Shown piece after piece: positions 34,071 to 63,420 of a DNA stretch of 64,000 nt; the stretch's first letter is position 1; each line of letters opens with the position of its first letter. This DNA is from Mesoterricola silvestris (lineage in GTDB: Bacteria > Acidobacteriota > Holophagae > Holophagales > Holophagaceae). Below the pieces are notes generated by a model. It was not told the DNA's origin. It was given only the letters and a program-made list of their open reading frames with translations, and did not search any database. The position numbers were made by a program, and so were the translations under genes. Where the stretch lies: positions 1 to 64,000 of the forward strand of contig NZ_AP027080.1 of the NCBI RefSeq assembly GCF_030295405.1, written 5' to 3'.

Positions 34071-34130
34071 CTATTCGCCGATGATCTTGATGAGTACCCG
34101 CTTGTCGCGGCGGCCGTCGAATTCGCCGTA
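34071..34130 (-). pseudogene. yjbQ: Displaced 3' end of resident yjbQ
   Basis: Read on the minus strand, this segment encodes [19 protein letters not shown] plus TAG. That is the last 19 residues of YjbQ and is identical in protein sequence to the C-terminus of the intact copy at 50780-51214. Its GC-rich codons match the backbone. It continues exactly where the resident gene breaks off at 60078, so joining 60078 to 34130 restores a 144-codon gene. It marks the left boundary of the island. Confidence 0.93.
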
Positions 34131-34165
34131 AAACACTTTTATGTACCAAATGATTGTCAACCGTG

Positions 34166-34176
34166 TGTGTGGGTGA
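34166..34176 (+). repeat. Element-end signature, left copy
   Basis: TGTGTGGGTGA lies about 36 bp inside the left boundary, preceded by GTCAAC and by an ACTTTTAT stretch next to the yjbQ tail. The same 11 bases occur at 46772-46782 at nearly the same distance from the second yjbQ tail. It is probably part of the recombinase-recognised end. Confidence 0.6.
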
Positions 34177-34575
34177 CTGATTCTATTTGGCTTAGCATGA
34201 CAAAAACCGTCCTTTGGCTTGAATTATGTTAACCAACCATGGGTTTGGCGCCTTCGGGGCTGAGAGTTCTTAACAGGCAGTCGGGAGAATCATCATCCAG
34301 CAAGGATGGTTCTTCTCGTCTTCTTCCAGGGCTGGGGCAACTTCAATCAACCGGGAAATAAGACTTCATTGACCCTTCAGACCTTCTGGACTGCTCCATC
34401 GTCCAGGGAGTTCCTTTCGCGGAATATTTCAAGCATGCCCTTGCCAAGCGCGGAAGCAGAAAGATCCCCCCGACCTTTGGTGTCGAAAGGCGATAATGAC
34501 CTGCTGGTTTCATCCGTCAATTGCCTGGGGGGCGCCTGGATCGGTCACGCATTAACATAGGTCTGGAGGTGACCC
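34177..34575. other. Island left flank without a supported gene
   Basis: This stretch of about 400 bp is of lower GC and holds no convincing gene. An 84-codon frame at 34306-34560 has no ribosome site and no family features. The ribosome site of the next gene (GGAGGTG, 34563-34569) closes the stretch. Confidence 0.5.
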
Positions 34576-36162
34576 ATGGCCTGGGGACATCGCACCGTGT
34601 ATGTCCAGCAGCCCGCTAAGTCTCCCGAGACGCCCCAGGATCAATACCTGAGGATCCTGGAGGCCGCCCCCTTTTCTGAGCGAGCGGGTGCCATTGGTTA
34701 TTTCCTCGGGGAGCATGAGGACAAGGCGCAGGCTATGCAATGCGCTCAACGCCTAGCGGCGGACCCGGAGGCCGCCCTGCGCTTCGCCGGGGCAGCAGCT
34801 CTGGTCCGCTTGCACCTAGGTGGTTCGCGTGAGGCGGAGAAGACCCTCTGGACGCTAATCAGAGACGAAAGCCCAAAGGTCAGGGCCAAGGTCGCCGACG
34901 GCCTGAAGTGGGATAACCTGCCAGAGACGGGTCGGCTGAAGCAGGCGCTGGCGGAAGACGCAGATCCGACGGTTCGCGCCCACGCCGCGATGGGCTTGTA
35001 TTTGCTCGGCGATGAAGCTTCCCGTGCCTCCCTGCTAGCCCTCACCTGGGACCCTGTCGCCGAAGTCCGTGCTGAGGCCATATATGCCCTGCAGAACATC
35101 GAGGAGCAGAACAATCCGCCACCGCCCACAGAATTCTTGGGGTTCGTCGAGGACCCCTCGCCCCTGGTGCGGAGCAGCCTTGCAGCCTGGCTGCATTGGG
35201 AGAACCCCGCAATTTCGTTCCCTTACCTCCATCGGCTTGTCCGGGATCCGGATGCTTCCGTCCGGTTCCAGGCCCTTGCCTCTCTGGGGGCGAACCCGGC
35301 TTCCGAGGTCACCACTATCGTGCGATCGGCCACAGCGGACCCCGACCCATCCATCCGGGCCGAGGCCCTGAGTTTGCTCCAGAGCCGGGCATGCGCCGAC
35401 CTTCGCCAAGTCCTTCTCGCCAATGCTGCGGATTCCTCCTCGGTGGTGCGGAAGCAGGTCGCATACGGGCTAGAGCGGGATCCGACTCCCGACCTCTTGC
35501 CGACGCTTGAGAAGTTCAGCGAGGACGAGGCCAATATGAACATCCGCCGTTCTGCGCTTAGGAGCCTGGAACAACTCCCCGGTGTTGAGGCCGAGGCATT
35601 GATTGTCCGGATGTTGAGGGATCCCGCCAAACCGATCGCCAAAGCCGCAGAGAAGGTTCTCAAACAACGCGCCAAAATTCAGGGCGTCTCCCTGGAGAGC
35701 GCAAACATCGTCCAGTTCGGCCTTCAAGATGCTGTTGCGACCCGACTGGCCTTCCATGGCCTCTCAAAGGTGCCTCTGAAGGCCTGGGAGGATTTCCTGT
35801 CGCAAATCATCCGGCTGGATGGCCGGCCCAAGGCCGACTCGGCCTCCTCTCCAGCCGTGCAAGTCGAGGCCCAAGATGGAACCCTGCACTGCATTCTGCC
35901 CTTCGGTCCAGCCCAATGGATCCGCCTTGATACGGTTTTCCAGCCTGGCCACCCCACGCTTATGGGCTTCGCCATCCAAACGACAAAAGAAGTTGCCATT
36001 TGGTTCCAGACTCAGCAGCCTAGGCATTTTAACCACGGCCTCCGGTTGGCAAAGCGCCTTGGCTGGGTAGAGGGGAGTTCACCGACTTCCGATAATCCGG
36101 TCCAAACGGCCCGAGCCATCCATTGCAGGGCGCGACCATCCCGTGGCGCCCTGCTTTCCTAA
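34576..36162 (+). CDS. HEAT-repeat protein
   Basis: The 528-residue protein is dominated (about residues 30-370) by HEAT-like helical repeats. These have recurring D-P/S-x-x-x-V/I-R-x-x-A phrases such as DESPKVRAKVADGL, DADPTVRAHAAMGL, DPVAEVRAEAIYAL, DPSPLVRSSLAAWL, DPDASVRFQALASL and DPDPSIRAEALSLL. Such arrays are protein- or DNA-binding scaffolds. The C-terminal third (about 380-528) is not repetitive and is not recognised. ATG 34576 follows GGAGGTG. As first cargo gene, convergent with the GHKL ATPase gene, it may be an adaptor of the neighbouring system, but that is inferred only from position. Confidence 0.8.
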   Translation: MAWGHRTVYVQQPAKSPETPQDQYLRILEAAPFSERAGAIGYFLGEHEDKAQAMQCAQRLAADPEAALRFAGAAALVRLHLGGSREAEKTLWTLIRDESPKVRAKVADGLKWDNLPETGRLKQALAEDADPTVRAHAAMGLYLLGDEASRASLLALTWDPVAEVRAEAIYALQNIEEQNNPPPPTEFLGFVEDPSPLVRSSLAAWLHWENPAISFPYLHRLVRDPDASVRFQALASLGANPASEVTTIVRSATADPDPSIRAEALSLLQSRACADLRQVLLANAADSSSVVRKQVAYGLERDPTPDLLPTLEKFSEDEANMNIRRSALRSLEQLPGVEAEALIVRMLRDPAKPIAKAAEKVLKQRAKIQGVSLESANIVQFGLQDAVATRLAFHGLSKVPLKAWEDFLSQIIRLDGRPKADSASSPAVQVEAQDGTLHCILPFGPAQWIRLDTVFQPGHPTLMGFAIQTTKEVAIWFQTQQPRHFNHGLRLAKRLGWVEGSSPTSDNPVQTARAIHCRARPSRGALLS

Positions 36163-36283
36163 GTCTTGGGCGCATGGCAGGGCATGCCCTCCGTTGGTAA
36201 TGGTGAAGCCGGAATGGATGCGCTAGATCACTTTTGGAATCTTGACCTAACTCTCCAAGTAGCCGTTCCGGTGCATACCATAG

Positions 36284-37810
36284 CTAAATCCGCGCCATGA
36301 TTCGATCAACCAGCGTTTTTGCTGCTACTCGATTAACCGAGCACTCGTAAATCAGACTGATCATCCGCTGAATGGTCTCCCGCTCCTTTTTAGGCAGCTC
36401 TGCCAGCGGCCCAGCTTCCGAGGTCACCTTCTTGGCCTTTTTCAACCTGGACTCCAGCTCCTGATGCCTCTCTGCCAATAGGCTGCGGTCCTCTTCACAT
36501 AGGACCTGCGCATCAGCGACCTTCCTGATCTCATGCATTTCGCCTTGGATTTCTTGGACGATCGCATCTGCCTCGTTCTTGCGAAGCACTCCTTGTTCCA
36601 GGATATTCAACCGCTCCTCGATCTTCAGGACTCCGATATCAAAAGCTTTGATCCGATTGCGGACAATGGAATTGCTCCGGCAGAGGCGGGCAACGTGGTC
36701 CCCGATCTCAGTTAATTGATGGATGACTTGGGTATAGTGGGCATTCTGTTCAAAATCATCCCGGCGTCCGTTTGGAACAACCCTGTCATCCAGCAGGTGG
36801 ACTTCGCCCACGATCCAACTCGCAAACCGGGCTTCCGGGAAGATGGACGTAAAGATCCGGTGGTCGCCGACCTGAATGTTTCCTTTCCTGGCTTTGAGGC
36901 CCTTCACACCAGAGGCACTGGGAATTGCGCCGAGGTAGCTGTGGTTCACCATCCAGGCGACGGCAGAAACGCCGCCATTCATGCCGGGGAGGACCCGAAA
37001 CTCTGGGTCAGTGAATTCATCGGTCTTCGCATCCCCGACCGAAAATTCATTCAGGTAGGGTCGGTAAAGGGGAGTCTTCTTCTTACCCAGAAGGATCTGG
37101 ATCTCATCCAGGGCCGTATGCTCCCGGAGGAAGGCCGCTATCTTCTTGCCATATTTGAACTTGGGATTGAAAGGAACGGGCGCGACCTGGGATAGGTAGC
37201 GTCCGATTTCATCCTCGTTCAGAAGCAGGTCGTTCTTGATCCTGATGGGCTTCACCAACTCGACTTCGTAGAAGTGCTCAGGCCATCCGTCCGACTCAAG
37301 GACGGAGACCGTGGCGACCGCCTTGATGAGTTCCCCCACGCCACCGTCAAAATGGCTGTCCGTAACCAGTTTCTTGAAGGCTTTGCAGTCCCAGACCAAC
37401 TCCTGGACGTTGGCGTCCCCCTTCGACCGGGACCTGAAGATCAAAGACTGGCAATACCCCAGGCCAGCCAGCCGACCCACCCCGCGAAAGCCCCTGGCTG
37501 CGGTCCCTCGCTTCCGGCTGGCACCGAGGGAAGTAAGACGCTTGGCGAACTCACCGTTGGGAACACCCGTGCCGTTGTCACGGATTCGGACATTTCGGTT
37601 CTCGGCGTCGATATGAATCTCCACCTGCCCTATTTCATTGCCATAAAGGTTTAAGGCACGGGCCTCATCAATCGAATCGGCGGCATTCTGCACGTATTCC
37701 CTATAGATGGTCAGGGGATCGACGTACATGGCGGAGGTCACTAGCTCAAGAATGTCCTTACCGATCAAGATGTCGTTGGGGAGAGAAATGCTCGTGTGTT
37801 TGGTCACCAT
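36284..37810 (-). CDS. Hsp90-like GHKL ATPase
   Basis: The 508-residue protein has an N-terminal GHKL ATP-binding fold. The N-box is REYVQNAADSIDEA (residues 37-50), the Asp-Gly motif is IRDNGTGVP (near 78), and the lid Gly motif is GFRGVGRLAGLG (near 107). The middle region resembles the Hsp90/MORC-type transducer domain. The C-terminus (about 370-480) is a long coiled-coil stretch rich in Glu/Lys/Arg. ATG 37810 follows AAAGGA, 8 bp after the radical SAM stop, so the two are surely co-transcribed. GHKL ATPases of this kind recur in bacterial defence islands, but the job here is not known. Confidence 0.82.
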   Translation of the reverse strand: MVTKHTSISLPNDILIGKDILELVTSAMYVDPLTIYREYVQNAADSIDEARALNLYGNEIGQVEIHIDAENRNVRIRDNGTGVPNGEFAKRLTSLGASRKRGTAARGFRGVGRLAGLGYCQSLIFRSRSKGDANVQELVWDCKAFKKLVTDSHFDGGVGELIKAVATVSVLESDGWPEHFYEVELVKPIRIKNDLLLNEDEIGRYLSQVAPVPFNPKFKYGKKIAAFLREHTALDEIQILLGKKKTPLYRPYLNEFSVGDAKTDEFTDPEFRVLPGMNGGVSAVAWMVNHSYLGAIPSASGVKGLKARKGNIQVGDHRIFTSIFPEARFASWIVGEVHLLDDRVVPNGRRDDFEQNAHYTQVIHQLTEIGDHVARLCRSNSIVRNRIKAFDIGVLKIEERLNILEQGVLRKNEADAIVQEIQGEMHEIRKVADAQVLCEEDRSLLAERHQELESRLKKAKKVTSEAGPLAELPKKERETIQRMISLIYECSVNRVAAKTLVDRIMARI

Positions 37811-37818
37811 GATTCCTT

Positions 37819-39465
37819 TTACCGTGCCAGCGCCGCAGGCCGAGGGCTAGGCTCGGTCGAGTCCCCATCGTCCATGAGGCCAGCGTCTTCGACGACCTCG
37901 TCTTCGGGGAGATTGAAGGCGGGTTCCGGGGCTTCCAGCTTTCGCAGTTCCTTCTGCTTGTCCCAGATCACCCGCTCCACGTCCTTCTCAAGGGGGATGT
38001 AGAAGCTGAGAATGGCCTGGAGCTTGGGGTTGGCGACACCTTCCACCTTGCTCCTGATCTCAGCCCTGGTGAGGCGGTCGCCATCATTCTCGAATAGCCA
38101 GGTGCAAAGATACCCCGCCAGTTCGGAACGTTCTTCATCGGAAAGCCGGGCATCCTGAGCCAGGAACTCGTCGTACTCGGATCGTCCGTCCCCTTTGAAA
38201 TACCACATCCGGTTGAAGATGAAGTGGTGGGGCAGCGAGAGGAGCTTGAGGAAGTGGACGGAGGACTCGCCAAAGGCTTCCCGGAAGAAGTCCGGGCTGC
38301 CGCTGACAATGCCGTGGGTGGCCTGGAGGATGACTTGCATGGAACGGATCTGGTAGCGGTTCCAATGTTTGCCAACGAAGGACCGGTCCTTTTGGTCAAC
38401 GGGGTGATACCGCATTGGGAAGGAGAAGATGCGGATATTCAGTTCCTCGTTCAGTTGGACGTTCAGGTGCATGCGGTCGTAGAGGTCCGCAGGGTCGTCG
38501 TTGTAGTTGTAGAGCATGTAGTTGGACAGGCCCTTGATGCCATTATCCGCCGCCATGCGGATGGAGGTTTCGTACTGCTTGCGCAGCCCCAAGTGATCGA
38601 AGGCGATGCGCAGGGGGCTAATGCAGGTTCGGGCAATCTGCTTCATCAGTTCGCCGTTCTTGGCGAGTTCCCGGGCATCTACGCCTTGGTTGAAATCGAC
38701 CCTTCGCATGATTTGGATACCGCGTTTGCGGATGGTCGCGCCCCGGCCAAACCCCAGGTCCACCACCTCGGAGATGATGTCGGCAAACTTCTCCGAGGCC
38801 ACGATGTTGTTGTCCATGAAGATCAGGTCTTTCTTCTGACCGTACCGGGCCTCAATGCCGTTCACCAGCTTGGTGATGGACGGCGTGTCACGCTGGCCAC
38901 CTTCAAGCTTCGGAACCCCACAGAAGCTGCATGTCCGAATGCAGCCGCGCGAAGCATAAAGGAAGTAGGCGTCATGGACGGGGTAGCGATAGCTGATCTG
39001 TCCGAGGATGGAATAGTCCGGCAGCATCTCCTCAATAGGGCCGCTATGCCGGTCCTCCGAATAGAGTTCTTCGTCAAATTCATCCAGTTGCAGGGACTCC
39101 GCTGGGGAATCGACCAGCAGCCCTTGAATGAAGCGGATGCCTCGCCATCTGGGTTCTTCCAGGAACTTGTCATGCATGAGGGAGGCTGCAATCCCGCCTA
39201 CAAAGACGAGGTCCGCCCTGCCGTGGGCGACCTCCAGGGCGAAGTCGATGGACCTAGCCGTGCGGGTCCACTCAAACGAAAATAGGGTCGTGATGTAGAT
39301 ACGATCCCAGGCCGTGCCAATGACGGAACGGTCCTCGCCCTTTATGAATCTCACGTTGTCGCCCTTACCCTGGGGGCCATGGTACTGGGCAAGTTTCATC
39401 AAGCCGAGGGGAGGGTATTTGTTCCTATAGCCAGGTTCTATCAAAAGAATGTTCTTGTTTGCCAT
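37819..39465 (-). CDS. B12-binding-type radical SAM protein
   Basis: This protein has 548 residues from ATG 39465 (GGAG 5 bases upstream). The N-terminal part (NILLIEPGYRNKYPPLGLMKLAQYH...) has the layout of a cobalamin-binding Rossmann domain, though the DxHxxG cobalamin motif is not evident. The radical SAM core carries the cluster motif CIRTCSFC (Cys175, Cys179, Cys182), followed by IFMDNNIV and an extended C-terminal domain with an acidic tail. Such enzymes make a 5'-deoxyadenosyl radical to modify RNA, peptides or small molecules. The partner is the GHKL ATPase gene directly downstream. This composition is unusual for a defence-type cassette. Confidence 0.82.
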   Translation of the reverse strand: MANKNILLIEPGYRNKYPPLGLMKLAQYHGPQGKGDNVRFIKGEDRSVIGTAWDRIYITTLFSFEWTRTARSIDFALEVAHGRADLVFVGGIAASLMHDKFLEEPRWRGIRFIQGLLVDSPAESLQLDEFDEELYSEDRHSGPIEEMLPDYSILGQISYRYPVHDAYFLYASRGCIRTCSFCGVPKLEGGQRDTPSITKLVNGIEARYGQKKDLIFMDNNIVASEKFADIISEVVDLGFGRGATIRKRGIQIMRRVDFNQGVDARELAKNGELMKQIARTCISPLRIAFDHLGLRKQYETSIRMAADNGIKGLSNYMLYNYNDDPADLYDRMHLNVQLNEELNIRIFSFPMRYHPVDQKDRSFVGKHWNRYQIRSMQVILQATHGIVSGSPDFFREAFGESSVHFLKLLSLPHHFIFNRMWYFKGDGRSEYDEFLAQDARLSDEERSELAGYLCTWLFENDGDRLTRAEIRSKVEGVANPKLQAILSFYIPLEKDVERVIWDKQKELRKLEAPEPAFNLPEDEVVEDAGLMDDGDSTEPSPRPAALAR

Positions 39466-39866
39466 TAAGGCTCCAGAAGGCTCCCGTCGGGTCCTGAAGG
39501 AAATGATAGCGAGAACGGCCCACAAGTCGATCCCTAAGGCGCTGTCTGCATCCGCCTCGGCCAACTTCTGAAAAGAGAGGGGACCATCCTTTTTGCAACT
39601 CCATAATAATTTCATTCCGCATCACCCTTGAGTGCCGACGAGTTGTATAGGGATTGCTGGGGAATCTGCTTGCCACCCAAAAATAAATGCTGGCAGCGTC
39701 ATTGGCTGTCCATTGTCGTGGTGCAAAATCACGAAAGCAAAATGAGGGAAACGATTCATTCGTCTTGCTACTATTGGGGATTGCTCTCATTCAGTGCGGC
39801 CTTCCGTTTGGTTTTCATCTATCAGGTAGCGGCCGTAAACCTTAATAATCCAAGGAGGAATGGCTA
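39466..39866. other. Divergent regulatory region of the cargo
   Basis: This is a 401-bp spacer between the divergent radical SAM/GHKL operon and the ParB-nuclease-helicase operon. It is AT-richer than the neighbouring genes and should hold both promoters. No clear coding frame is seen. It ends with a strong AAGGAGG (39852-39858) serving the plus-strand operon. Confidence 0.55.
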
Positions 39867-40892
39867 ATGCCGCTTGTCATCCAGTACTTGGAGGTCAAAG
39901 ACATCGTCCTGGACTGCCGCAACCCTCGGGTGGCACCTGCACTGGAATCCCTGGAGGGAGACCCTGCGCAGGACTTCATCGAGATGGCGCTTGGCCAGTA
40001 CGCACCGGATGATTCGGAAAAGCCCAATTCCACGACTTTCTCCAGCCTCAAGGCGTCCATCCGGGCCTACCAGGGACTGATCAACCCAATCGTGGTGACC
40101 CAGAGGGAGGACGGTAAGTTCCTGGTCATCGAGGGCAACACTCGGGTTTCCATCTTCCGCCAGCTTGCCAAGGAAGGTGCGCTCGGCGATTGGTCCAAAA
40201 TCCCCGCGATGGTCCGCACCGAGTTGGAGGAGGAGGGAGAACATGCCATCCGCCTCCAGTCGCACCTAGTCGGCCCCCGCGACTGGCGTCCCTACGCCAA
40301 GGCCAAGTACCTCCACATGCTGTACACGGAGAAGAAGATCTCGATTACCCAGATTCTCGATTACTGTGGTGGCAGCGCCAGGAAGCGGGAAATCGAAGAA
40401 TTCATATACGCCTACGTGGACATGCAGGATCATTACATGGAGGTCATCGGCGACAACCCGCCGGACTACACCCGCTTCAGCGCCTTCGTTGAGCTTCAGA
40501 AGCCCGGCATCAAGGAGGCCATCACCAAGGCCAAGTTCACGCTGACGGACTTCGCCAAGTGGGTGCATGAGTCCAAGATTCACCCCTTGAGTACGGTTCG
40601 GCAGATTCCCAGGATTCTCGCCCACCCCGAAGCGCGGAAGAAGTTTCTGTCCTACAACGCCAGGGAAGCCATGAAGGTGCTGGAACAGCCCAGCGCCAAC
40701 GCGGCGCTGAAAGAGGCGACCATCGACCAGTTGGCGCAGGCCATCACAAGCAAGATTCGTACTCTCAACTACTCCGACATCCAGGGACTCAAGGAGGCCA
40801 ATACCTCCCTTCCCGCCCAGACGCTGCTCGAATGCTACGAAGAGCTTCGTGACCTATGCAAAATGACAGGCATGGTTACGGAAAATGAGTGA
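39867..40892 (+). CDS. ParB-like protein 1 (EGNTR type)
   Basis: The 341-residue protein contains a ParB N-terminal/sulfiredoxin-like domain with LINPIVV (residues 71-77) and EGNTRVSIF (89-97), the loop that binds nucleotide in ParB/Srx folds. The following helical region (about 125-200, ISITQILDYCGGSARKREIEEF) looks like the ParB helix-turn-helix. The rest is helical. Translation starts at ATG 39867, 8 bases after AAGGAGG. It is first of four overlapping genes. ParB-like NTPases with an EGN(T/S)R loop also occur in DNA-modification and defence systems (compare DndB/DpdB), but no further members of those systems are present. Confidence 0.8.
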   Translation: MPLVIQYLEVKDIVLDCRNPRVAPALESLEGDPAQDFIEMALGQYAPDDSEKPNSTTFSSLKASIRAYQGLINPIVVTQREDGKFLVIEGNTRVSIFRQLAKEGALGDWSKIPAMVRTELEEEGEHAIRLQSHLVGPRDWRPYAKAKYLHMLYTEKKISITQILDYCGGSARKREIEEFIYAYVDMQDHYMEVIGDNPPDYTRFSAFVELQKPGIKEAITKAKFTLTDFAKWVHESKIHPLSTVRQIPRILAHPEARKKFLSYNAREAMKVLEQPSANAALKEATIDQLAQAITSKIRTLNYSDIQGLKEANTSLPAQTLLECYEELRDLCKMTGMVTENE

Positions 40893-41328
40893 AGGGCTTC
40901 ATCACAAGCTGCTCGTCCAGGCCCTGCTTGGGGAGATCCGGAATCCCGCAGAATGGGACCGCCACCCCTTCGTCTACTGGGACCTTGAAGACGAGAACGG
41001 CGTGAATGTGCCCCCTCCCACCATTCAAGGAAGCCGCCCCGATATCCTGGCGCGGGACCCGGGTGACCGTCGCGTCATCATTGCTGAGGCGAAAACGTCC
41101 AGGGACATCGACAACCGCCACACGGAGACCCAGTTGGAAGCCTACTTCTATTTCCTGTCCGCTTTCGAAAAGGCAGAGCTTTGGCTAGGCGTCCCCTGGT
41201 CCTGTGGTGGCACTGCCAGGAGGGTTGCGATGAACGTCAGGTCCACCGTCGGAACCAACCATATTCCTATGCGGATCATGGATTTCCTGGTGGGCGAACC
41301 CATGTACAAGAGGGTCTGGAATGGGTGA
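40885..41328 (+). CDS. PD-(D/E)XK nuclease-like protein
   Basis: The 147-residue protein has the core of the restriction-endonuclease fold: Asp53 in RPDILAR and Glu68-x-Lys70 in VIIAEAKT, followed by an amphipathic helix with Gln (TETQLEAYFYFL). The N-terminal helix HHKLLVQALLGEI fits the first helix of the fold. It overlaps the ParB-like gene before it and the helicase gene after it by 8 bp each, so production is coupled. The nuclease probably works with the helicase as a split restriction-type enzyme, an inference from motif and order. Confidence 0.75.
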   Translation: MSEGLHHKLLVQALLGEIRNPAEWDRHPFVYWDLEDENGVNVPPPTIQGSRPDILARDPGDRRVIIAEAKTSRDIDNRHTETQLEAYFYFLSAFEKAELWLGVPWSCGGTARRVAMNVRSTVGTNHIPMRIMDFLVGEPMYKRVWNG

Positions 41329-42811
41329 ATTTACGTTCCGTCTTCGCTCGGAACCGAGCCTGGAGGCGCGGCACAAGGCGTTTCCCTTCCAGGGGGAGGC
41401 TGTCGAGTTCGTAACCTCTAGGGACTACGCGGCGATTTTCCATGAGCAGGGTCTTGGCAAGACCAAGATCGCCATCGATGCCATGCTCATGTGGCTCCAG
41501 CGGAAGGAAGTGGACACCATCCTGATCTTCACCAAGAAAGGGCTGATCGCCAACTGGCAGCGGGAGTTCAAGAGCCACACCAGCATCAACCCGCTGGTCG
41601 TCACGGAGAACACGGCCAAGAATTACTACGTGTTCACCACCCCTTGCCGGGTCATCCTGAGCCATTTCGAAGCGGCCAAGAAGGAACTGTCGCGGTTCAA
41701 GGCATGGGCCAAGTCGCGCCGGGTGGCCGTCATCATCGATGAGTCCGCCAAGATCAAGAATCCCGAAAGCGACCTGACAAAGGCGTTCTTCGAGTTGGGA
41801 CCGTACTTCGCCAAGCGGCTCATCATGACAGGGACCCCTGTGGCCAACCGGCCCTACGATGTCTGGGCACAGATCTTCTTCCTGGACCAGGGAGCGGCGC
41901 TCGGCACCGACTTCAAGGCGTTCAAGAAGGCCACAGACTTCACCAGTGAACTGGCCGACCACCCGGAGGCCTTCCAGGCCTTCACCGAGGCCCTCAGCGA
42001 GGTGAACCGGAAGCTTGCCCCGATTTCCTTGCGGGAAACCAAGGACAGCGGCCGGATCATCCTGCCTTCCAAGGAGTTCATCCGGGTGGACTGCGACTGG
42101 GAGCCTGCGCAATTCGAGCTGTATCGTCAGGTCCGGGAGGATTTGCGGCTGCTGATCATGCGGGACGGCCAGCTTATCGAGGACGATCAGGAATCCATCC
42201 TCAAGCGGCTCCTGCGCCTGATCCAGATCGCGTCCAATCCCTCCATAATCGACGGCGCCTATTCGTTGCTGCCAGGGAAGTTCAACTATCTCTACGACCT
42301 TCTCACGGACATCACCCGCCAGGGTGAGAAGGCCATCGTCTGGACCAATTTCAACGAGAACTGCGAATGGCTGAACAAGCAGCTTGCGCCCTTTGGGGCC
42401 TTGCCGATGAACGGCAGGATGAACATGGAGCGGCGGAACGCTTCAATCAACTGGTTCCTGGAAAGGCCGGAGAACCAAGTCCTGGTCGCCACACCAGGGA
42501 CGGCCAAAGAGGGTTTGACCCTCACGAACGCCAACCACGTCATTTTCTATGACCGCACCTACAGCCTGGATGACTACTTGCAATCCCAGGACCGGATCCA
42601 CCGGGTGTCCCAGACCCGGACCTGCTACGTATACAACCTGATCATGCTGAATTCGGTAGATGAGTGGGTTGATGCGCTGCTGGAAGAGAAGCGGTTGGCT
42701 GCACAGATCACCCAGGGCGACATCACTGCCGCCGCATACGCTGAGCAAGCTTCGCTTCAGTTCTTTGACATTCTCAAGCAGATTCTAGGTAGGGAGGATA
42801 GTCACTCATGA
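41321..42811 (+). CDS. SNF2-family DNA translocase/helicase
   Basis: The 496-residue protein has both RecA-like lobes. Walker A is HEQGLGKTKIA (44-48), and motif II is VIIDESAKIKN (about 138-148, a DES variant typical of SNF2). Motif III is IMTGTPV, motif V is TPGTAKEGLTL, and motif VI is QSQDRIHRVSQ near 425. SNF2 enzymes move along duplex DNA and remodel or unload bound proteins. No additional DNA-recognition domain is attached, so the ParB-like or nuclease partners may supply targeting. It overlaps its neighbours by 8 bp (5') and 4 bp (ATGA, 3'). Confidence 0.9.
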   Translation: MGEFTFRLRSEPSLEARHKAFPFQGEAVEFVTSRDYAAIFHEQGLGKTKIAIDAMLMWLQRKEVDTILIFTKKGLIANWQREFKSHTSINPLVVTENTAKNYYVFTTPCRVILSHFEAAKKELSRFKAWAKSRRVAVIIDESAKIKNPESDLTKAFFELGPYFAKRLIMTGTPVANRPYDVWAQIFFLDQGAALGTDFKAFKKATDFTSELADHPEAFQAFTEALSEVNRKLAPISLRETKDSGRIILPSKEFIRVDCDWEPAQFELYRQVREDLRLLIMRDGQLIEDDQESILKRLLRLIQIASNPSIIDGAYSLLPGKFNYLYDLLTDITRQGEKAIVWTNFNENCEWLNKQLAPFGALPMNGRMNMERRNASINWFLERPENQVLVATPGTAKEGLTLTNANHVIFYDRTYSLDDYLQSQDRIHRVSQTRTCYVYNLIMLNSVDEWVDALLEEKRLAAQITQGDITAAAYAEQASLQFFDILKQILGREDSHS

Positions 42812-43812
42812 CCTTCCAGGAAGATACGATCACGATCCGGAAGAAGGAAATCAAAGTCAAAACGGGCTACATGCCCCAGCTGGACTTGCGGTTCTTCCCC
42901 GAGAACCCCCGCATCTACTCCATGGTTTGGGCCGAGGACGGTGAAGTGCCGACCCAGGAGGAGATCTTTAATGCCCTGTCCAAAAGTGAGCATGTCCGCG
43001 AGACCTTGGTCCCCAGCATCAAAGCCAATGGAGGCCTGATCGAGCCAGTTCTGGTTCGGAAAAATGTGGTTCTGGAAGGTAATAGCCGCCTTGCCGCCTT
43101 TCGATTGCTTTACCAAGTCGATCCGAAGGCCTGGGTCAACATCCGCGTCAAGATTCTGCCGGATGGCATCACTGACAGCGAGGTGTTCTCTCTTCTGGGC
43201 GAATTCCATATCGTCGGCAAAAAGGACTGGGCGCCTTTCGAGCAGGCTGGGTACCTCTACAGAAGATTCAAGCTCCACGGCGTCCCCGAGGATCAATTGC
43301 ACCAGGAGGTGGGCATTGGCAAAGCCAAAATTCAGCACCTCATCCGGGTCTACCAATACATGCTGGACAAGGGCGACAAGAACCCTGACCGCTGGAGCTA
43401 CTACGATGAGCTTTTGAAGGGACGCAAGTTCGACAAGGCCCGCGCGTTATACCCTGGCTTTGACGAACGCATCACCGGGATGATCCAGGACGGCTCAATC
43501 TCCAGGGCCGTCGATGTCCGTGACAACCTTTCCATGGTGGTCAAGGTCGGCGGAAATACCCTTAAGAAGTTCATGAACGGTGGATTGACCTTCGATGGCG
43601 CGGTAGAAGATGCTCGGTTACGTGGAGCAGGTAGTTATTACGTCACCAAATTTTCTGATTTCCGAAAATGGTTGGCTGACGACCATTTGGATGCCGAAAT
43701 CAGTTCCGTTTCCGAAAAGGAAAAGGGTGTGTTGGAATATGAGCTTTCTCGAATCGAAAAGCGAATCAAGCAGATTGCACACAAATTGAAGCCTTCTACT
43801 TCTTCCAACTAA
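42808..43812 (+). CDS. ParB-like protein 2 (EGNSR type)
   Basis: The 334-residue protein is a second ParB/Srx-fold protein in the same operon. It has GLIEPVLVRKNVVLEGNSRLAAFRLL (loop Gly91-Asn92-Ser93-Arg94 within its second half). A helix-turn-helix-like segment follows (about 150-175, HGVPEDQLHQEVGIGKAKIQHLI). It differs clearly from the first ParB-like protein in sequence, so it is not a recent duplicate. The pair may form a heteromeric clamp or a DNA-binding complex. The start overlaps the helicase stop (ATGA). The 3' end becomes AT-rich and faces the convergent Rossmann-like gene. Confidence 0.78.
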   Translation: MTFQEDTITIRKKEIKVKTGYMPQLDLRFFPENPRIYSMVWAEDGEVPTQEEIFNALSKSEHVRETLVPSIKANGGLIEPVLVRKNVVLEGNSRLAAFRLLYQVDPKAWVNIRVKILPDGITDSEVFSLLGEFHIVGKKDWAPFEQAGYLYRRFKLHGVPEDQLHQEVGIGKAKIQHLIRVYQYMLDKGDKNPDRWSYYDELLKGRKFDKARALYPGFDERITGMIQDGSISRAVDVRDNLSMVVKVGGNTLKKFMNGGLTFDGAVEDARLRGAGSYYVTKFSDFRKWLADDHLDAEISSVSEKEKGVLEYELSRIEKRIKQIAHKLKPSTSSN

Positions 43813-43845
43813 TAGCAATGTCAGAATTGGCGGATAGGCTAAGGG

Positions 43846-44694
43846 CTATAGGTCTGGAAATAAATTAAGGGGTAAAGTCTCTTCGGCTTCGGGCGCGGGG
43901 ATCCAGGGGAATTCATCAAAAGGATGGTCATTTAGGCCTGTAATTTCTCTCTCAACTTTTTGAACGGCGAAGGCCCAAAGGCCCATCGGAACGTTTGTGT
44001 CCCGATATTTATACTTTTCAATTAGCGCTGGTGACAATTTCTCTGACGCATGGACTCCGCCTGTATTCCGTAGGAAGGCCTGTCCAACAAGTAAATCGAC
44101 GTGATTTCGCACCTTGAATTGAGTGTCAATATCGCCTTCGTCAACATGGAAATAATCCGAAAATAGATTCAGCTTATCTTCCATAAATGTAGGTTGATGC
44201 ATAACCCGCGGCACAAGGCATGACGTGATAATTAGGAAATCGCCGGCACGCAATAGATTAAATTTTAAAAGTGACTCAATCGCCCCTTGGTGCCTCTGTG
44301 CAAAACATTCGGTATAATCTAAAAAGAATATGAAATTCTGTCCTGCTTGACGTTCTCCAAGCTTCCCGAAATCAATTGCAAAGTCTCCTTGAATCACGGA
44401 AATATGAACACGCTTAGTCAGTCGCAAGGCTTTTGCCACAACGCAGTTGTTTGCCTTTTGCGCCAAGTCCTCCTCGAGCTCGAAAGAGAAGGCTAAGAAT
44501 TTTCTTTTTCGGAGGTCAAATACGGCAAGTAAGTCCATTAAATCATAAAGCTCTGCTCCGCCAAATGTCACATAGGAGATCAAATCCGCCCCAGGCTTGA
44601 GTTGCTTTTTTACAGATCTAAAGCACTGGTTTAGCACTAGTCTTTTCTGGATGCGGTATGGAGGCTGGAGGGTATCGTGGTATTGGTTGCTCAT
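43846..44694 (-). CDS. Rossmann-like protein of unknown function (possible methyltransferase fold)
   Basis: The 282-residue protein is AT-rich. I do not recognise a family. The order of strands resembles a class I methyltransferase. LISYVTFGGAELYDL stands in for motif I, FLAFSFELEED for motif II with an acidic end, VIQGDF for motif III, FIFFLDYTECF for motif IV, and LLRAGDFLIITSCL for motif V. The usual GxGxG is missing, so this is weak. It is the second gene after the GHKL ATPase on the minus strand, 25 bp downstream, and is probably its partner. Confidence 0.5.
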   Translation of the reverse strand: MSNQYHDTLQPPYRIQKRLVLNQCFRSVKKQLKPGADLISYVTFGGAELYDLMDLLAVFDLRKRKFLAFSFELEEDLAQKANNCVVAKALRLTKRVHISVIQGDFAIDFGKLGERQAGQNFIFFLDYTECFAQRHQGAIESLLKFNLLRAGDFLIITSCLVPRVMHQPTFMEDKLNLFSDYFHVDEGDIDTQFKVRNHVDLLVGQAFLRNTGGVHASEKLSPALIEKYKYRDTNVPMGLWAFAVQKVEREITGLNDHPFDEFPWIPAPEAEETLPLNLFPDL

Positions 44695-44719
44695 TTATCT
44701 TATCGATTCGCGCGAGGCA

Positions 44720-46423
44720 TTATTTGGAGGTTGGGGTAGAACGAACAATCAGTGCCACGAGATAATTTTTGACAGCTTCAGATAGTTTTGTTGAATCTGA
44801 AACTTTAAAAATTCTTAAACAGTTTGAAAATTCATTCGCATTTAACGGGAACACTATGCCGGCCGTTAAGCAATCGTAAACAATAACTCCTAAGGAGTCT
44901 TCATCCTGTGCCCCGAGGGTCGCGCATAAATTTTCAAAGTCTGCTGGTGCTAATGAAATTGTAATCTGCCGATCTGCCGGTGGTTCCATTTCGCTTGTGG
45001 TACCCTCTCCGGAGGTGTCCTCGCTTTCGTTGGTTGGCGATGTGGCTGTGGTGCTTGGATCGGCGGCGCTTGGTTTTTTTGATTTCACGGCTCGCCTATC
45101 AAACTTAAAGGCTGGCCTGTGTTCCTCGGGAATAATCGGGGAATAGGGACTCACTGGCACAGTGGCTGGTATTCCTGTGAAAGCCTTAACTAATTCTGTA
45201 TTTCTATGCTCTGTCTCTGTTGCGAAAGTTCCAGAAACTTGGCCATATTGGACAAGGAAAGGCCTAATTACTGTCCGAAGCCAAATGCTAACTTCGTGAT
45301 CTTTGAAATATTCGCGCTTATGCGTATCCCATGGAATTCCAAGGCTGTGACCAGAGATGTGTAACTCGCCCCTAACAAACCGGCTGCCTACGGTATTTTT
45401 ACCAAGGCCGGTTGTTCCAAATCCGAATTCATCCTTGAGATATTTTTGAATCAATCTGCCATTCGCATAAACATCAATTCCGAAATCCTTTTCTCGATTG
45501 GTGCCTTCGCCAGGTTGATGAGTTAGCAGCCCAACTGTGAGCTCAAATTTCAATTCAACATCCTGCCCACTGTTCACCAAATTCTTAAAGGTATTTTGGA
45601 AGATGTATGTTCGAGGTTCAACTCCATCTGCGCCTGAATATACAATCTGGGGAACAGCGACAACCGGGGATTTGTTGACTGAAATTTGTACTTTCTTTCC
45701 ACCCTCATTGCCTCGGAGAATAGGGGCATATATTTCGCCAATCCTTGCTCTCAATACGCTAATATCATCAAGGTTAGGGGGTAGTATCAGCCGGAGAAAG
45801 TAAAACCGCGTTAGCCCAACACCAATTGCATCAGTGCGCCCATCCAGGGTTTTCCAGGTAGGGTCTTTCTCCCACCCTTCGGGCACTTCGCTAAAAGACG
45901 AAAAATCGGCCGACTTACAGGAGACGACCCGAACCCCATCCGAAAGCCTAAATATTGCTTTCTTTGCACCCATGCCAAAGGATCCGATCATGGGCTTTGA
46001 AAGGTCATCATTGGTGGATTCGCCTGGGATAAAGACTTTGTACACTGTTTCGTCGTCCATCCCGCCAGCGTTATCCTCAAATTCTCCAACGCCAAGGGTG
46101 ATGTCATAGTTTATTTTTATCTTGAGATCTGCTATCTTTCCACCGCGTCGCCATTCATCAATGGAATTATCTATCAATTCGTAGTTGGCTTCAAAAAATG
46201 AAAGATCTCTTCGAGCATTTAGGACAAGGGCTTTCGGTGGAGCGTGGTCCTTAGCTTCAGCTCCCGCTGATGGCTGTATATTCGCAAAAAAGGTTCGGAG
46301 GCCGAGAAAGAAGCTGATGTCTTTATTGTATGTTTTTGCAAGGGTGGGAAAATCGTGCTCGTTGAGGATAGCTCGCTGCTCTGACGTTGTTAACGATTCC
46401 CAAGTCGTAGTCTCAGAATCCAA
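44720..46423 (-). CDS. GHKL ATPase (MORC/Hsp90-like), second copy in island
   Basis: The 567-residue protein uses a TTG start at 46423 behind GGAGG. The GHKL fold shows the N-box ANYELIDNSIDEW (79-91), FEDNAGGMDD (near 115) and the lid GSFGMGAKKAIF (near 147). The middle (about 200-400) is a predicted transducer domain. A Ser/Thr/Pro/Glu-rich linker (about 440-490) precedes a small helical C-terminal domain. It is not closely similar to the GHKL protein at 36284-37810. It is markedly AT-rich compared with the backbone, so it has a different source. It is paired with the Rossmann-like gene downstream. Confidence 0.8.
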   Translation of the reverse strand: MDSETTTWESLTTSEQRAILNEHDFPTLAKTYNKDISFFLGLRTFFANIQPSAGAEAKDHAPPKALVLNARRDLSFFEANYELIDNSIDEWRRGGKIADLKIKINYDITLGVGEFEDNAGGMDDETVYKVFIPGESTNDDLSKPMIGSFGMGAKKAIFRLSDGVRVVSCKSADFSSFSEVPEGWEKDPTWKTLDGRTDAIGVGLTRFYFLRLILPPNLDDISVLRARIGEIYAPILRGNEGGKKVQISVNKSPVVAVPQIVYSGADGVEPRTYIFQNTFKNLVNSGQDVELKFELTVGLLTHQPGEGTNREKDFGIDVYANGRLIQKYLKDEFGFGTTGLGKNTVGSRFVRGELHISGHSLGIPWDTHKREYFKDHEVSIWLRTVIRPFLVQYGQVSGTFATETEHRNTELVKAFTGIPATVPVSPYSPIIPEEHRPAFKFDRRAVKSKKPSAADPSTTATSPTNESEDTSGEGTTSEMEPPADRQITISLAPADFENLCATLGAQDEDSLGVIVYDCLTAGIVFPLNANEFSNCLRIFKVSDSTKLSEAVKNYLVALIVRSTPTSK

Positions 46424-46682
46424 GGAGACCTCCGTGTGAAATTGGATTGTAACGCAAGGAGCGGTTCATTGGTCCTCGGTATCTGCGCCCATTACCTCGG
46501 AACCTTGAGCCTCTCTGCATGACTCTGTCGGAAATTAGATTAGTCATTTCATTGTGGCACACGGCCATCATTGATGGAAGGGTGTTTGATGGGATTTGAA
46601 ATTTGCAAAGATAGCTAAACATCTACCACGGACCATCCAAGGCTCAGTCGGGTGAAATGTGAATGCGATGGGGATTGTGCTT

Positions 46683-46752
46683 TTCCCTACTTATTTTTAC
46701 CAGGACCTTCTTATCCCGCCTTCCAACAAATTCTCCATAGTAAACTTCTATA
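46683..46752 (-). pseudogene. Foreign yjbQ 3' fragment inside the island
   Basis: On the minus strand this encodes IEVYYGEFVGRRDKKVLVKI and then SRE, the YjbQ C-terminus in a diverged, AT-rich version that runs on into unrelated codons until 46644. It lies next to the second copy of the TGTGTGGGTGA end signature, in the same relative position as at the left boundary. It is best read as an old attachment-site half carried in from another host or left by an earlier insertion. Confidence 0.8.
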
Positions 46753-46771
46753 CATTTAAGGGATGTTAACT

Positions 46772-46782
46772 GTGTGGGTGAG
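46772..46782 (+). repeat. Element-end signature, internal copy
   Basis: TGTGTGGGTGA, identical to 34166-34176, with GTTAAC just before it where the left copy has GTCAAC. It lies about 30 bp to the right of the internal yjbQ fragment and is likely the left end of the second (recombinase-bearing) element. Confidence 0.6.
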
Positions 46783-46802
46783 TGCCTGAACCGGAGGGGT
46801 AA

Positions 46803-47651: not shown

Positions 47652-47864
47652 CTAGAGAGGATGCTGGTCGTCCACCTGGTGTCGGAATTGCCCAACCATC
47701 CGGCCGTAGCGGTCACCTTGCTCTCGATCTAAGATGGCCTCCCCGCATGCGGGGCAGAACTCGCACGTCACCGCCGAGATGATGGCACTTACACCACGGT
47801 AGTCGGTGGGAATATCGTGGGTGGTATGTATCAGATCCGCTGCCCCGCAAGCTGGGCATCGCAT
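47652..47864 (-). CDS. MqsA/YgiT-type zinc-finger protein, lacking the HTH half
   Basis: The 70-residue product starts at ATG 47864 with AAAGGAG upstream. The two CxxC pairs MRCPACG and CPACGEAIL, with DIPTDYRGV between them, match the N-terminal zinc domain of MqsA antitoxins. MqsA normally continues with a helix-turn-helix domain, which is absent here because a stop follows QVDDQHPL. Short YgiT-type proteins exist on their own, so it could be complete. No MqsR-like toxin lies upstream. Confidence 0.65.
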   Translation of the reverse strand: MRCPACGAADLIHTTHDIPTDYRGVSAIISAVTCEFCPACGEAILDREQGDRYGRMVGQFRHQVDDQHPL

Positions 47865-51958: not shown

Positions 51959-54070
51959 TCAAGGGCAGGCATCATCATGCGACCACCCCATACCGGTGCG
52001 CCGTCGGTTTGGGGCAGGCGGGGCTGTCACTGCGGCTTCCAGGGCGTCTCGATTCCCCACTAGCACCACCTGCTCTTGGGCCCTGGTCAGGGCCGTGTAG
52101 ATCAGGGTCCGATCCAGGAGTCGGCTGGGGAAGACGGGGATGACGACCCGCCTGAACTGGCTGCCCTGGGCTTTATGTACGGAGACCGCGTAAGCGAGGT
52201 CCAGGCTTTCAAGATCAGCCCGTTCCATTATCATCGGCTTGCTGTGACCATCCCAACTTACCGAGAACGAGTTGGAGTATGCGCCATCAACGATGCCCAG
52301 AGTGCCGTTCCAAATCCGCCGCTCATAGTCGTTCTCCAGAAAAATTACGGGGTCACCAACGGCGAACCCTTCCCAGGCCTCATGGCCTACAGATCGAAGG
52401 TTATGGAGTGATCGGTTGATGGCCTGAATCCCCGCTTGGCCACGCTTGATGGCTGAGAGAATCTGAGTCACACCCGGACCACCCAGCTCTGACAGCATCT
52501 CAATCACTAGGCCTTGGGCGTCGGCCTCAGTACAAGGCGTGAAAGACACGCCCTTGCCGACGCCACAAAATCTAGACAACTCGGGCATACGGCCAAGGCG
52601 TATTTCCTGAGCACACTTCGGAATCCCTGTCTCTGCAGCCTGCCGATGCACCACCGTCAGTTCGACTTTGGGGGCTCGGTCATCCTCGGCGTACACACTG
52701 AAAACCAGTCCCATGCCGATGGGTGGGAGTTGATAAGGATCGCCGACCAGCAGCACCCGAGTGCCCTCGGGGATCTCACGCAGTAAGGTATACATCAGTG
52801 GGAGATCGATCATGCTGGCCTCGTCGATGACGATCAGGTCTCCCCCTCCGAGGGCCAAATCCCCTCGATCTAAGGCCCCCAGGAACCCTGCGATAGTGCG
52901 GGCCTGATGACCCGTGGCCTCCTGTATTCGGATGGCCGCACGGCCAGCCAGCGCGAGGAAGTGGACGGTGCCCTCGCAACGCGACACGGTCCATTGGACA
53001 GCCTTCAGCACGGTAGTCTTACCAGTACCGGCTCCACCTAAGAGCAGGGCAAACCGCTGAGTTAAAGCCAGCCACACCGCCTGTTTTTGTTCGTCCGTGA
53101 GTTTAAAATCGTTCCCAGCCTGGAACTCCCCGATCAAGGCGTTCACCTCGGCATCGGTGGGGACCTGCCAGAACAGATGCCCAGAGGGAGCGAACTCTGC
53201 GGCCACCAACGATGAAATTCTGTCCTGGACGTAGGACTCCATCACATGGGGACCCAGAGCCTGCCAACGGCCCATGCTCAACTGGACCACCGCCTGGTCC
53301 TCGCATGCCAGTTTTAGGGCCGATTCCGCTCCGTTCCGGACTTCTCCGAGGAGTTGAGCCACACCGCGCAACAACTCGTCCTCCCCTATGGTCGTGTGCT
53401 TTTCGCTAATGGTTCGATAGCAAGTGGCCTCAACAGCGGCGACCCGACGAGTGTCAGCGTCACTCGGAACTCCCATTAGGCGGGCAGCCGTGTCTACCTC
53501 ACTCCAGCCGGCAACAGCCAGCATCCGGTACGGGTTCTCTTCTACCTTCTCTGGAGCCAGCGGCCCCCAGAGCTTGATGACTTTACCGGCCAGCCGCACT
53601 GGAAACCCGTGCATGTCCAACCACTCCACTACCCGAGCCTCGGCGCGTGTCTCCTCCCAGGCTGCGGCCAGCGTTTCGGCGATCTCCGCCCCTACTACTT
53701 CAGCCAGGGATTTCGTGTCCTTGGCGTCCAGGAGGTCGACAAGGCCATTTCGGAATTTCTCCCACAGCTTGCCTGCCCGGATCTCTCCAACCCCCTGGAA
53801 GGCACGATTACGGGCCAGGAATCGCCTAAGATGCTCACCCTCAGGGACCACGGGGACGGCAAGGGAAGCTACGATTTGGAGACCCCATATCGGGTGAGTT
53901 TCAGTTTCCCCTTGTACGCGCCAGGATTCTTCGGGCCTCGGCGGCCTCGAAAGTACTTTCTCGCTGGCGACAACTTTGTGGAAGTCGCCCTTTGGGTCCT
54001 TGCCCAGAAACACCGCGCCGCCTTTGGGACCACGCCACACCCGCGAGATGGTCAAGGCAAGTTCTGTCAT
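51959..54070 (-). CDS. RecD2-like DNA helicase
   Basis: The 703-residue superfamily 1B helicase is predicted to unwind DNA 5'-3'. The N-terminal OB-like/helix-hairpin region (about 1-320) includes FQGVGEIRAGKLWEKF. Walker A is LLGGAGTGKTTVLK (about 345), Walker B is LIVIDEASMIDLPL, and motif III is LLVGDPYQLPPIG. The C-terminal motif AVSVHKAQGSQFRRVVIP with YTALTRAQEQVVLVG is that of the RecD/TraA group. It is the last of six overlapping genes (ATGA with the gene before), so it is a functional part of the recombinase module and not random cargo. It may process the element's DNA during excision or integration. Confidence 0.9.
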   Translation of the reverse strand: MTELALTISRVWRGPKGGAVFLGKDPKGDFHKVVASEKVLSRPPRPEESWRVQGETETHPIWGLQIVASLAVPVVPEGEHLRRFLARNRAFQGVGEIRAGKLWEKFRNGLVDLLDAKDTKSLAEVVGAEIAETLAAAWEETRAEARVVEWLDMHGFPVRLAGKVIKLWGPLAPEKVEENPYRMLAVAGWSEVDTAARLMGVPSDADTRRVAAVEATCYRTISEKHTTIGEDELLRGVAQLLGEVRNGAESALKLACEDQAVVQLSMGRWQALGPHVMESYVQDRISSLVAAEFAPSGHLFWQVPTDAEVNALIGEFQAGNDFKLTDEQKQAVWLALTQRFALLLGGAGTGKTTVLKAVQWTVSRCEGTVHFLALAGRAAIRIQEATGHQARTIAGFLGALDRGDLALGGGDLIVIDEASMIDLPLMYTLLREIPEGTRVLLVGDPYQLPPIGMGLVFSVYAEDDRAPKVELTVVHRQAAETGIPKCAQEIRLGRMPELSRFCGVGKGVSFTPCTEADAQGLVIEMLSELGGPGVTQILSAIKRGQAGIQAINRSLHNLRSVGHEAWEGFAVGDPVIFLENDYERRIWNGTLGIVDGAYSNSFSVSWDGHSKPMIMERADLESLDLAYAVSVHKAQGSQFRRVVIPVFPSRLLDRTLIYTALTRAQEQVVLVGNRDALEAAVTAPPAPNRRRTGMGWSHDDACP

Positions 54071-54465
54071 GGAATCACCCGCCTCCCCGTGGAAACCATG
54101 TGTTCCTCAATATGGGCGTACCGCCGGAGCTTCTGACGCAGACCCTCAACCTCGGCCTGGAGGACAGCATTCCTCGCCTCCAACGTCTGGATGCGGCGGT
54201 CCTTGGCGTCATCCTTGGATGGGCCCGCCTCACGTGTCTCCATCGGCGCGAGGCCCAGCTCTTGGGCGGCGGCTTCGAGCATGGCCCGACACTTCACATT
54301 TTTATAAAGCGACTGGGTTTCGATGCCTGACGCCAGGGCAACGCCCTTGGCTGAGACCTTTCCGGCTCGGGAGGGGAGCGCTTTCCCTTCCTTTCGCAAG
54401 GCTTCCAAATACTGGGCAAGGGTCTCCGAATACTCATCCCCGATTTGTTTACCGCTTTTGGTCAC
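54067..54465 (-). CDS. Small coiled-coil accessory protein B of the recombinase module
   Basis: The 132-residue protein uses a GTG start at 54465 that overlaps the previous stop. The N-terminal half (YSETLAQYLEALRKEGKALP, then KGVALASGIETQSLYKNVKCR) looks like a small DNA-binding helical domain. The C-terminal half is a leucine-rich coiled coil (IQTLEARNAVLQAEVEGLRQ). It is similar in build to the protein encoded just upstream. TnpC-like helical proteins accompany the recombinases of Tn554-like elements, and this is probably such a factor. Confidence 0.65.
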   Translation of the reverse strand: MTKSGKQIGDEYSETLAQYLEALRKEGKALPSRAGKVSAKGVALASGIETQSLYKNVKCRAMLEAAAQELGLAPMETREAGPSKDDAKDRRIQTLEARNAVLQAEVEGLRQKLRRYAHIEEHMVSTGRRVIP

Positions 54466-54923: not shown

Positions 54924-54933
54924 AAACCGTCCC

Positions 54934-60077: not shown

Positions 60078-60452
60078 GAAGATCTGCTCCCAGGGGCCGA
60101 AATCCAGGCGGCCCTTGGTGATGGCGACAACCACCTCCCGGCCCATGATCTGGCGCTTCTGGTGGGCGTCGCCGTTGTCCTCGCCGGAGCGGTTGTGCAG
60201 GTAGCCGCCCCGGGCGGGGTCGGCGCCTTCGTTGAAGGGGGCGAGCTTTTCCAGCCAGCGCTTGTAGTCCTCGTGGAGGCCGGGCTCGTCGTCGTTGATG
60301 AAGACGCTGGCGGTGATGTGCATGGCGTTGACGAGGCAGAAGCCCTCCTGGACGCCGCTGGCGTCCAGGGCCTCCTCCACGTCGGGGGTGATGTTCACGA
60401 AGCCCACCCGCTCGGGCTCGTGGAGGGTCAGGGTCACGCGGTGGGATTTCAT
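60048..60452 (-). pseudogene. yjbQ: Resident yjbQ, 3'-truncated by the island
   Basis: Codons 1-125 of yjbQ (ATG 60452; [15 protein letters not shown]... through WEQIF) are native, and the last 9 codons (LHSPDLVCH) come from the island end. The normal C-terminus [19 protein letters not shown] is missing and lies at 34071-34130. The truncated 134-residue product lacks a conserved C-terminal strand and is probably inactive or unstable. The gene is divergent from thiG with 52 bp between them, which fits the reported thiamin-phosphate-synthase-like activity of this family. Confidence 0.93.
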
Positions 60453-60504
60453 GGGCGGCCTCTTCCCTACAGTAGACTGGTACCCGAACTTTTTGGAGTC
60501 GCCC

Positions 60505-61281: not shown

Positions 61282-61317
61282 CGCCGGGTTATCCTGGAGG
61301 GGCAAGGGAGCCCGTTC

Positions 61318-63305: not shown

Positions 63306-63420
63306 ACCTGGGCCGGGGGATCCGGATGAATTAAATATTAATGTCGCGGTGTGACCCCGGTCCGTTGGAGAACGGGGGCAACCGTGATAGCTTTCATCTC
63401 GTTCTCCTCAGAGGTCCCGA

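Follow-up and report, generated by a model that had tools for sequence, protein, structure and literature searches.

A GInt-type island in yjbQ of Mesoterricola silvestris with a complete, inverted and recoded copy of the interrupted gene

Introduction

GInts, which are also named Tn6571-family elements (PMC10121019), are described as elements that need four genes of their own for excision and integration, that have a cargo region and an AT-rich 3′ end, and that prefer the end of ssb (Bardaji 2017, PMC5385486). According to the accessible text of the same report, they probably leave their targets not fully inactivated. The usual view of site-specific islands is that they spare their targets, either by restoring the end of the gene or by landing beside it. 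Here we describe an island of Mesoterricola silvestris that lies inside yjbQ. The window, by which we mean the whole stretch of DNA that was analysed, comprises 64,000 nucleotides (positions 1 to 64,000 of contig NZ_AP027080.1, assembly GCF_030295405.1), and its features are listed in Table 1.

Table 1. Positions of the yjbQ parts, the two units and their genes in the window
Feature	Coordinates	Strand	Remarks
Native yjbQ 3′ tail including stop	34071..34133	-	stranded at left island end
Left unit	34134..46682		HEAT-repeat, two HATPase, SNF2-helicase and ParB-like genes
Left-unit 3′-end signature	34155..34180	-	TCAGTCACCCACACACACGGTTGACA
Internal diverged AT-rich yjbQ 3′ tail	46683..46748	-	junction of the two units; protein-level homology
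Right-unit (GInt) 3′-end signature	46764..46789	-	TCAGGCACTCACCCACACAGTTAACA
Spare yjbQ, complete, recoded, 144 aa	50780..51214	+	inverted relative to native yjbQ
RecD-like helicase	51959..54070	-	adjoins ginE
ginE (name used here), DUF6262 / VPA1267-like small protein	54067..54465	-	kept in several Holophagaceae GInts
ginD-like protein, ~150 aa	54462..54917	-	start picked within longer ORF 54462-55211
ginC-like protein, 711 aa	54934..57069	-	
ginB, tyrosine recombinase, 510 aa	57066..58598	-	
ginA, tyrosine recombinase, 460 aa	58591..59973	-	
Native yjbQ body, codons 1-125	60078..60452	-	cut by the island; G001 and G004 have an uncut homologue at this place

Results

An island separates yjbQ from its last codons

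In G001, a genome of the same genus, window positions 34078-34133 and 60078-61271 directly adjoin, overlapping by 3 bp, and positions 34073-34133 and 60078-63995 are joined in the same way, again with a 3-bp overlap, in the congeneric genome G004. Because the tail and body of yjbQ are contiguous in both genomes, we infer that about 26 kb (34134-60077) entered the gene after codon 125, an insertion point 19 codons before the stop. Synteny beyond this site is seen for the right flank in G001 and G004 and for the left flank in G001. The native tail at the left island end reads as 22 residues at 34074-34139 on the minus strand, with its stop at 34071-34073, and the frame of the truncated native gene continues after codon 125 into LHSPDLVCH and then stops.

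Solved relatives of YjbQ retain the tail that was lost here, with nine of nine alignments extending to residues 141–144 of 144; the truncated native YjbQ could retain function. YjbQ need not be essential for the host, and ThiE-like proteins are present: TMP-TENI (ThiE-like) matches were found in all six genomes of the genus, including that of the window. A role of YjbQ as the sole thiamine-phosphate synthase, considered as a candidate function, is unsupported in view of these matches. Across the same six genomes, yjbQ is intact, single and beside thiG in four, and broken with an additional intact, inverted yjbQ in two.

The right unit has the genes and layout of a GInt

The operon at the right of the island follows the ginABCD order, with three genes of tyrosine-recombinase type and then a small fourth one, and the unit shows a tripartite layout in which the gin operon lies at the target side and is accompanied by cargo and an AT-rich 3′ end. 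Homologues of GinA-D (54462-59973) occur in the same order in five other elements (pTROUS1, a Citrobacter plasmid and three Holophagaceae genomes), residues R277, H385, R388 and Y431 of GinA are invariant in five sequences, and the ginE protein matches VPA1267_fam, below the cut-off of that family. GInts are typically inserted between imperfect direct repeats of 10–17 nt; at the site in yjbQ, the comparison with the exact empty site in G001 and G004 showed an overlap of 3 bp. Judged by its gene content and order, the right unit of the island is a GInt; the first-pass annotation of this DNA had missed this, as well as the fact that the island holds a complete inverted yjbQ.

For the comparison of targets we used 75 of 80 loci, namely those with at least 300 bp of upstream DNA. 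In 48 of these 75 the GInt relative lies by ssb, in none at yjbQ and in 27 at neither, and the survey of recombinase-trio elements in yjbQ that had been suggested from the sequence thus turned up no other case. No relative of the ginC protein was found in viral contigs, and a scan at E 0.01 against NCBIfam, a library that may not include such models, returned no family named Gamma-Mobile-Trio, a system that consists of the GmtY, GmtX and GmtZ proteins.

The cargo of the GInt includes an MqsA-like antitoxin gene (47652-47984), for which no partner toxin was identified. Elsewhere in the genome of the window (G000:C1:729976-735555; L240, L241), a second ginE-recD module lies beside ORFs of 459, 1003 and 219 aa, which no gin query matched; the 459-aa ORF looks recombinase-like by eye.

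The island carries a complete yjbQ with a rewritten DNA sequence

A family search of the window genome returned two yjbQ matches, the cut native gene and a complete copy inside the island, which encodes a complete UPF0047 protein (E 2e-34). This spare has a GC3 of 0.59 compared with 0.96 for the native gene, is identical to the native part at 279 of 375 nucleotides, and has no common word with it longer than 17 nt. Over the first 125 codons, dN between the spare and the yjbQ of G001 is 0.10 and dS is 2.4 (saturated), and so the protein has been kept while the DNA has been rewritten. The recoding spans the whole length of the gene, including the cut point. In a YjbQ protein tree of 125 columns, in which most forks are open, the spare falls inside the clade of the genus (97/98) on a long branch, and it is not a supported sister of the inverted yjbQ of another congeneric genome, G003.

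A second target gene, DUF2203, and the generality of spares

On contig C35 of G437, the 3′-end motif described below (with two mismatches) is followed by codons 84-120 of DUF2203, and a complete, inverted DUF2203 copy is found 146 bp off on the element side. On contig C130 of this genome, codons 1-85 of DUF2203 run into an element end with the gin operon, ginE and the start of recD; since the two halves of DUF2203 are on separate contigs, their joining is our reconstruction. The ginE of G437 is 68% identical to that of the window. The DUF2203 spare differs from the native part with a dN of 0.063 and a dS of 0.94, and at the cut point it reads GGGGACGGATTT, where relatives mostly have GGCGAYGGCTAC. 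DUF2203 is cut at the identical place in G433 and G435, of which G435 shows the gin operon and G433 has a contig holding the junction sequence of G437; neither the tail nor a spare of DUF2203 was seen in these two partial assemblies. In G437 the related island repeats the design with a different gene, an indication that islands of this kind sometimes supply a spare for the gene they break. Towards its 3′ end, the G437 element has a serine resolvase gene next to the spare (L187:347-952), and resolvase-like letters precede the 3′ end of the element in G030, by eye.

The neighbouring target gene did not recur in the cargo of any of 74 other GInts, as far as that cargo was seen, which is at most about 9 kb for most of them; the set comprised L037, L046 and those 72 of the 80 loci that have 300 bp or more of upstream DNA. 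Same-locus matches in this set were weak ones (best E 0.001, in L073) or, in plasmids L037 and L046, strong short ones that do not concern the ssb target. There was likewise no spare within about 33 kb downstream in G319 (inserted in a radical-SAM-like gene), within about 13 kb in G257 (radC-like gene) or in the element of about 28 kb in G030 (recombinase gene). The mscL element of G435, with a single mscL match and no spare, seems from its sequence to give the gene a new start instead. A spare of the cut gene is not a general GInt trait. Further GInts in G435 (L244 and L253), G437 (L243) and G030 (L237) have ATAATTCGCAC in common at their 5′ junction; one of them sits in mscL, at codon 11, and we take the others to target a recombinase gene and a ferrochelatase-like gene, the latter at its end. 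According to the accessible text of Bardaji 2017 (PMC5385486), insertions at ssb keep the ssb product, so that GInts inserted there need no spare. Our literature search on yjbQ as an integration site found none, and that on elements carrying a copy of their target found no target-carrying GInt; the unreported status of such an element rests on that search.

A candidate scar in a congeneric genome

In G003, codons 1-21 of native yjbQ are followed by an inverted, complete yjbQ and then by the last 11 native codons; as in the window, thiG and a DEAD-box helicase gene flank the locus on opposite sides. The inverted gene has a GC3 of 0.66, in flanks of 0.67–0.70 GC. By its arrangement this locus looks like an island that has been lost except for its spare yjbQ. 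Neither GinB nor GinE has a match in G003, which leaves the candidate scar untied to any GInt; no GInt end motif was found at the locus. An inverted foreign yjbQ could instead have replaced the native middle by some other recombination, with no island involved, or the contig could be misassembled, and both the lack of an end motif or gin gene there and the nature of the assembly, a draft of about 270 contigs with 8% contamination, would fit such an origin. It is harder to reconcile with the two native remnants and the two neighbouring genes standing in order on one contig, and with an orientation and AT-shift that agree with those of the spare in the window, and we regard it as possible but doubtful.

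These data also bear on whether the spare in the window might be incidental cargo, that is, a horizontally gained paralogue unrelated to the insertion in yjbQ. Most GInts do without a spare, as seen in the 74 elements above and in G319, G257 and G030, and the accessible part of the published description has GInts transporting assorted host genes (Bardaji 2017, PMC5385486). Yet the duplicated gene is the cut gene in the case of two different genes, yjbQ and DUF2203, with both copies inverted, and a third genome, G003, kept only the spare between native remnants; as a rough judgement, the chance capture of one particular host gene among thousands, twice, is improbable. We consider incidental cargo unlikely.

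The two units have homologous 3′ ends

The 11-mer TGTGTGGGTGA, reported in the first-pass annotation at both unit ends, is present at 34166-34176 and 46771-46781, the second position being one base off the one originally given. By itself this 11-mer is weak evidence: two occurrences with at most one mismatch compare with 0.96 expected, and 24 of 100 shuffles reach two. The element-side ends, on the other hand, align without gaps over 26 bp, 21 of them identical, a score reached in 0.08% of 5000 shuffles and in none of 2024 island windows; this alignment places the two 11-mers 4 bp out of register. The 26-bp pattern TCASNCACNCACMCACACNGTTRACA, which was derived from the two window copies themselves, has exact matches only at these two sites in 77 Holophagaceae genomes, with one further match at two mismatches (G437), and in this form the signature is rare rather than common in unrelated sequence. 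The variants GTCAAC and GTTAAC and the tail-side words ACTTTTAT and ACTTCTAT are both present as described. Ahead of the gene tail, four GInt 3′ ends (the two of the window and those of G437 and G030) share a CAC-CACACA stretch and two words, one TTRACA-like and the other TATAA-like. Because Bardaji et al. 2017 (PMC5385486), in the accessible text, report no common recognition feature at the GInt 3′ end, these words may be a lead to such a feature, on the basis of four sequences.

No recombinase was found among the nine main ORFs of the left unit that were scanned, and gin queries match only the right unit in the window, in agreement with the earlier proposal that the left unit has no recombinase of its own. 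It thus has a GInt-type 3′ end and no ginABCD operon. The homologous 3′ ends, together with recombinase genes in the right unit only, bear out the proposal of two units stacked at one site. Left-unit genes (34576-46423) include an SNF2 helicase with ZorD/DpdE-like matches, and some match a defence library; the unit is possibly an undescribed defence cluster. A search of plasmids with its 567-aa protein returned three records, covering less than 60% of the query.

A diverged yjbQ tail marks the junction of the units

The yjbQ 3′ fragment noted earlier in mid-island is genuine homology: the minus-strand sequence EVYYGEFVGRRDKKVLVKI, within 46683-46748, matches the YjbQ C-terminus (32 residues) with a local score of 80, compared with 34 for the rest of the island and a maximum of 48 in 60 first-order Markov shuffles of the island (mean 35.5, sd 3.3). 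Both tails, at the left end and in mid-island, are on the minus strand, as had been stated. From FYGEF to KI, 13 of 17 residues of the native tail are kept (by eye), with 36 of 60 nucleotides identical; the frame continues for about 15 codons past KI before a stop, and in this window the tail belongs to no longer, intact gene. In agreement with the first-pass annotation, it is unlike each of the 28 relatives' tails compared. GC shifts from about 0.47–0.50 immediately left of the tail to 0.65 immediately right of it. With this shift, and with the right-unit 3′ end abutting it just as the left-unit end abuts the native tail, the internal tail marks the junction of the two units.

Its origin can be read in two main ways. 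The left unit could have carried it as a repair tail, restoring yjbQ before the GInt arrived, much as WHO elements do at FBA1 of yeasts (PMC7282813), and we lean slightly to this origin. The GInt could alternatively have sat in the yjbQ of another bacterium, with the composite leaving that host together with its tail and adjoining DNA, so that the tail of an earlier host would have been carried along, which comes near to the proposal in the first-pass annotation. This would suit a sequence that is Holophagaceae-like (GRRDK) and still differs at 4 of 17 residues, with a GC of 0.397, and a single 5′ end could then serve both 3′ ends. It requires, however, that flanking DNA was captured and that a second end of GInt type lay on the far side of this DNA, and no donor locus was found: in 396 genomes of the phylum the 567-aa protein of the left unit has, besides itself, three weak matches (E 4e-4 to 1e-3). 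We hold an earlier host to be a serious contender, if one that falls short of an even chance.

A third origin, as by-product of a small palindromic repeat, appears very improbable. Duplicate tails do occur downstream of yjbQ beside short palindromic DNA in 3 of 77 genomes of the family (G009, G017 and G191), whose repeated yjbQ tails may have arisen in this way, and the G009 piece recurs in that genome with eight self-matches. The tested G009 repeat, searched in five genomes, has no match in the window genome, on which ground this origin was rejected for that repeat, and the internal tail instead adjoins the GInt 3′ end that is common to the left end. The duplicate tails lie just downstream of yjbQ at L157:8344-8613 (G009), L156:8400-8700 (G017) and L158:14050-14250 (G191), and the palindromic DNA between them recurs in G009 and, in parts, in G017 and G191.

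Discussion

We consider it probable that the island is a tandem composite of two units at one yjbQ site, in which the spare carried by the right-unit GInt rescues the broken target. GinA-D would have integrated the right unit inside yjbQ, breaking the gene, with the action of these enzymes taken from published work on GInts, and the spare would most likely rescue YjbQ function. With the spare inverted and rewritten, homologous recombination should not loop out the recombinase genes, and the spare should not become a target itself. Gin proteins probably mobilized the left unit, which has a 3′ end of this type as well. Where the rest of an island is lost, the spare would remain as the working gene, as the candidate scar in G003 suggests.

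More tentatively, there may be a GInt lineage that combines gene hostage-taking with a built-in rescue, inserting into conserved host genes, inactivating them, and carrying an intact, synonymously rewritten and inverted copy of the gene concerned. If so, the host would rely on the element for that function, selection would act against deletions of the cargo, and decayed islands would leave the element-borne gene as the sole copy. By supplying a complete rewritten substitute for a gene that it interrupts far from either end, a GInt would have more safe targets open to it and would make the host dependent, and such elements would explain odd, AT-rich conserved genes in GC-rich genomes, G003 being an example. 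In bacteria they would form a natural parallel to cleave-and-rescue, and through them foreign-codon versions could replace conserved genes. Designed cleave-and-rescue gene drives, which are man-made, nuclease-based and made for sexual eukaryotes, disrupt a gene and at once provide a recoded copy for its rescue; the break and the recoded copy are alike in the window, and the parallel is one of analogy only.

Among natural systems, GInts as described in the accessible text of PMC5385486 share with the window the ginABCD order at the 5′ end, diverse cargo, the AT-rich 3′ end and site-specific insertion at a gene. The window differs from them in its yjbQ target (0 of 75 relatives), in the inverted, recoded copy of the cut gene, in a further unit that has this type of 3′ end but no recombinase, and in the extra ginE-recD module. 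A case that might be related is mentioned for P. aeruginosa, in which a duplicated ribonucleotide reductase gene has two GInts (PMC5385486). WHO elements at yeast FBA1 (PMC7282813), as far as the available description goes, resemble the window in repeated insertion at one gene, in element-borne replacement 3′ ends and in old 3′ fragments stranded in tandem arrays; they differ in being yeast homing endonuclease genes that carry a 3′ part and not a whole inverted gene, and their mechanism is unrelated. In strand-biased circularizing elements (SE), Tn554 and RIT elements (PMC10214605), as in the window, more than one tyrosine recombinase works together with a small accessory protein, and there is target specificity. 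In the accessible part of that source, SE and GInt proteins are separated by sequence; the operon of the window matches GInt genes.
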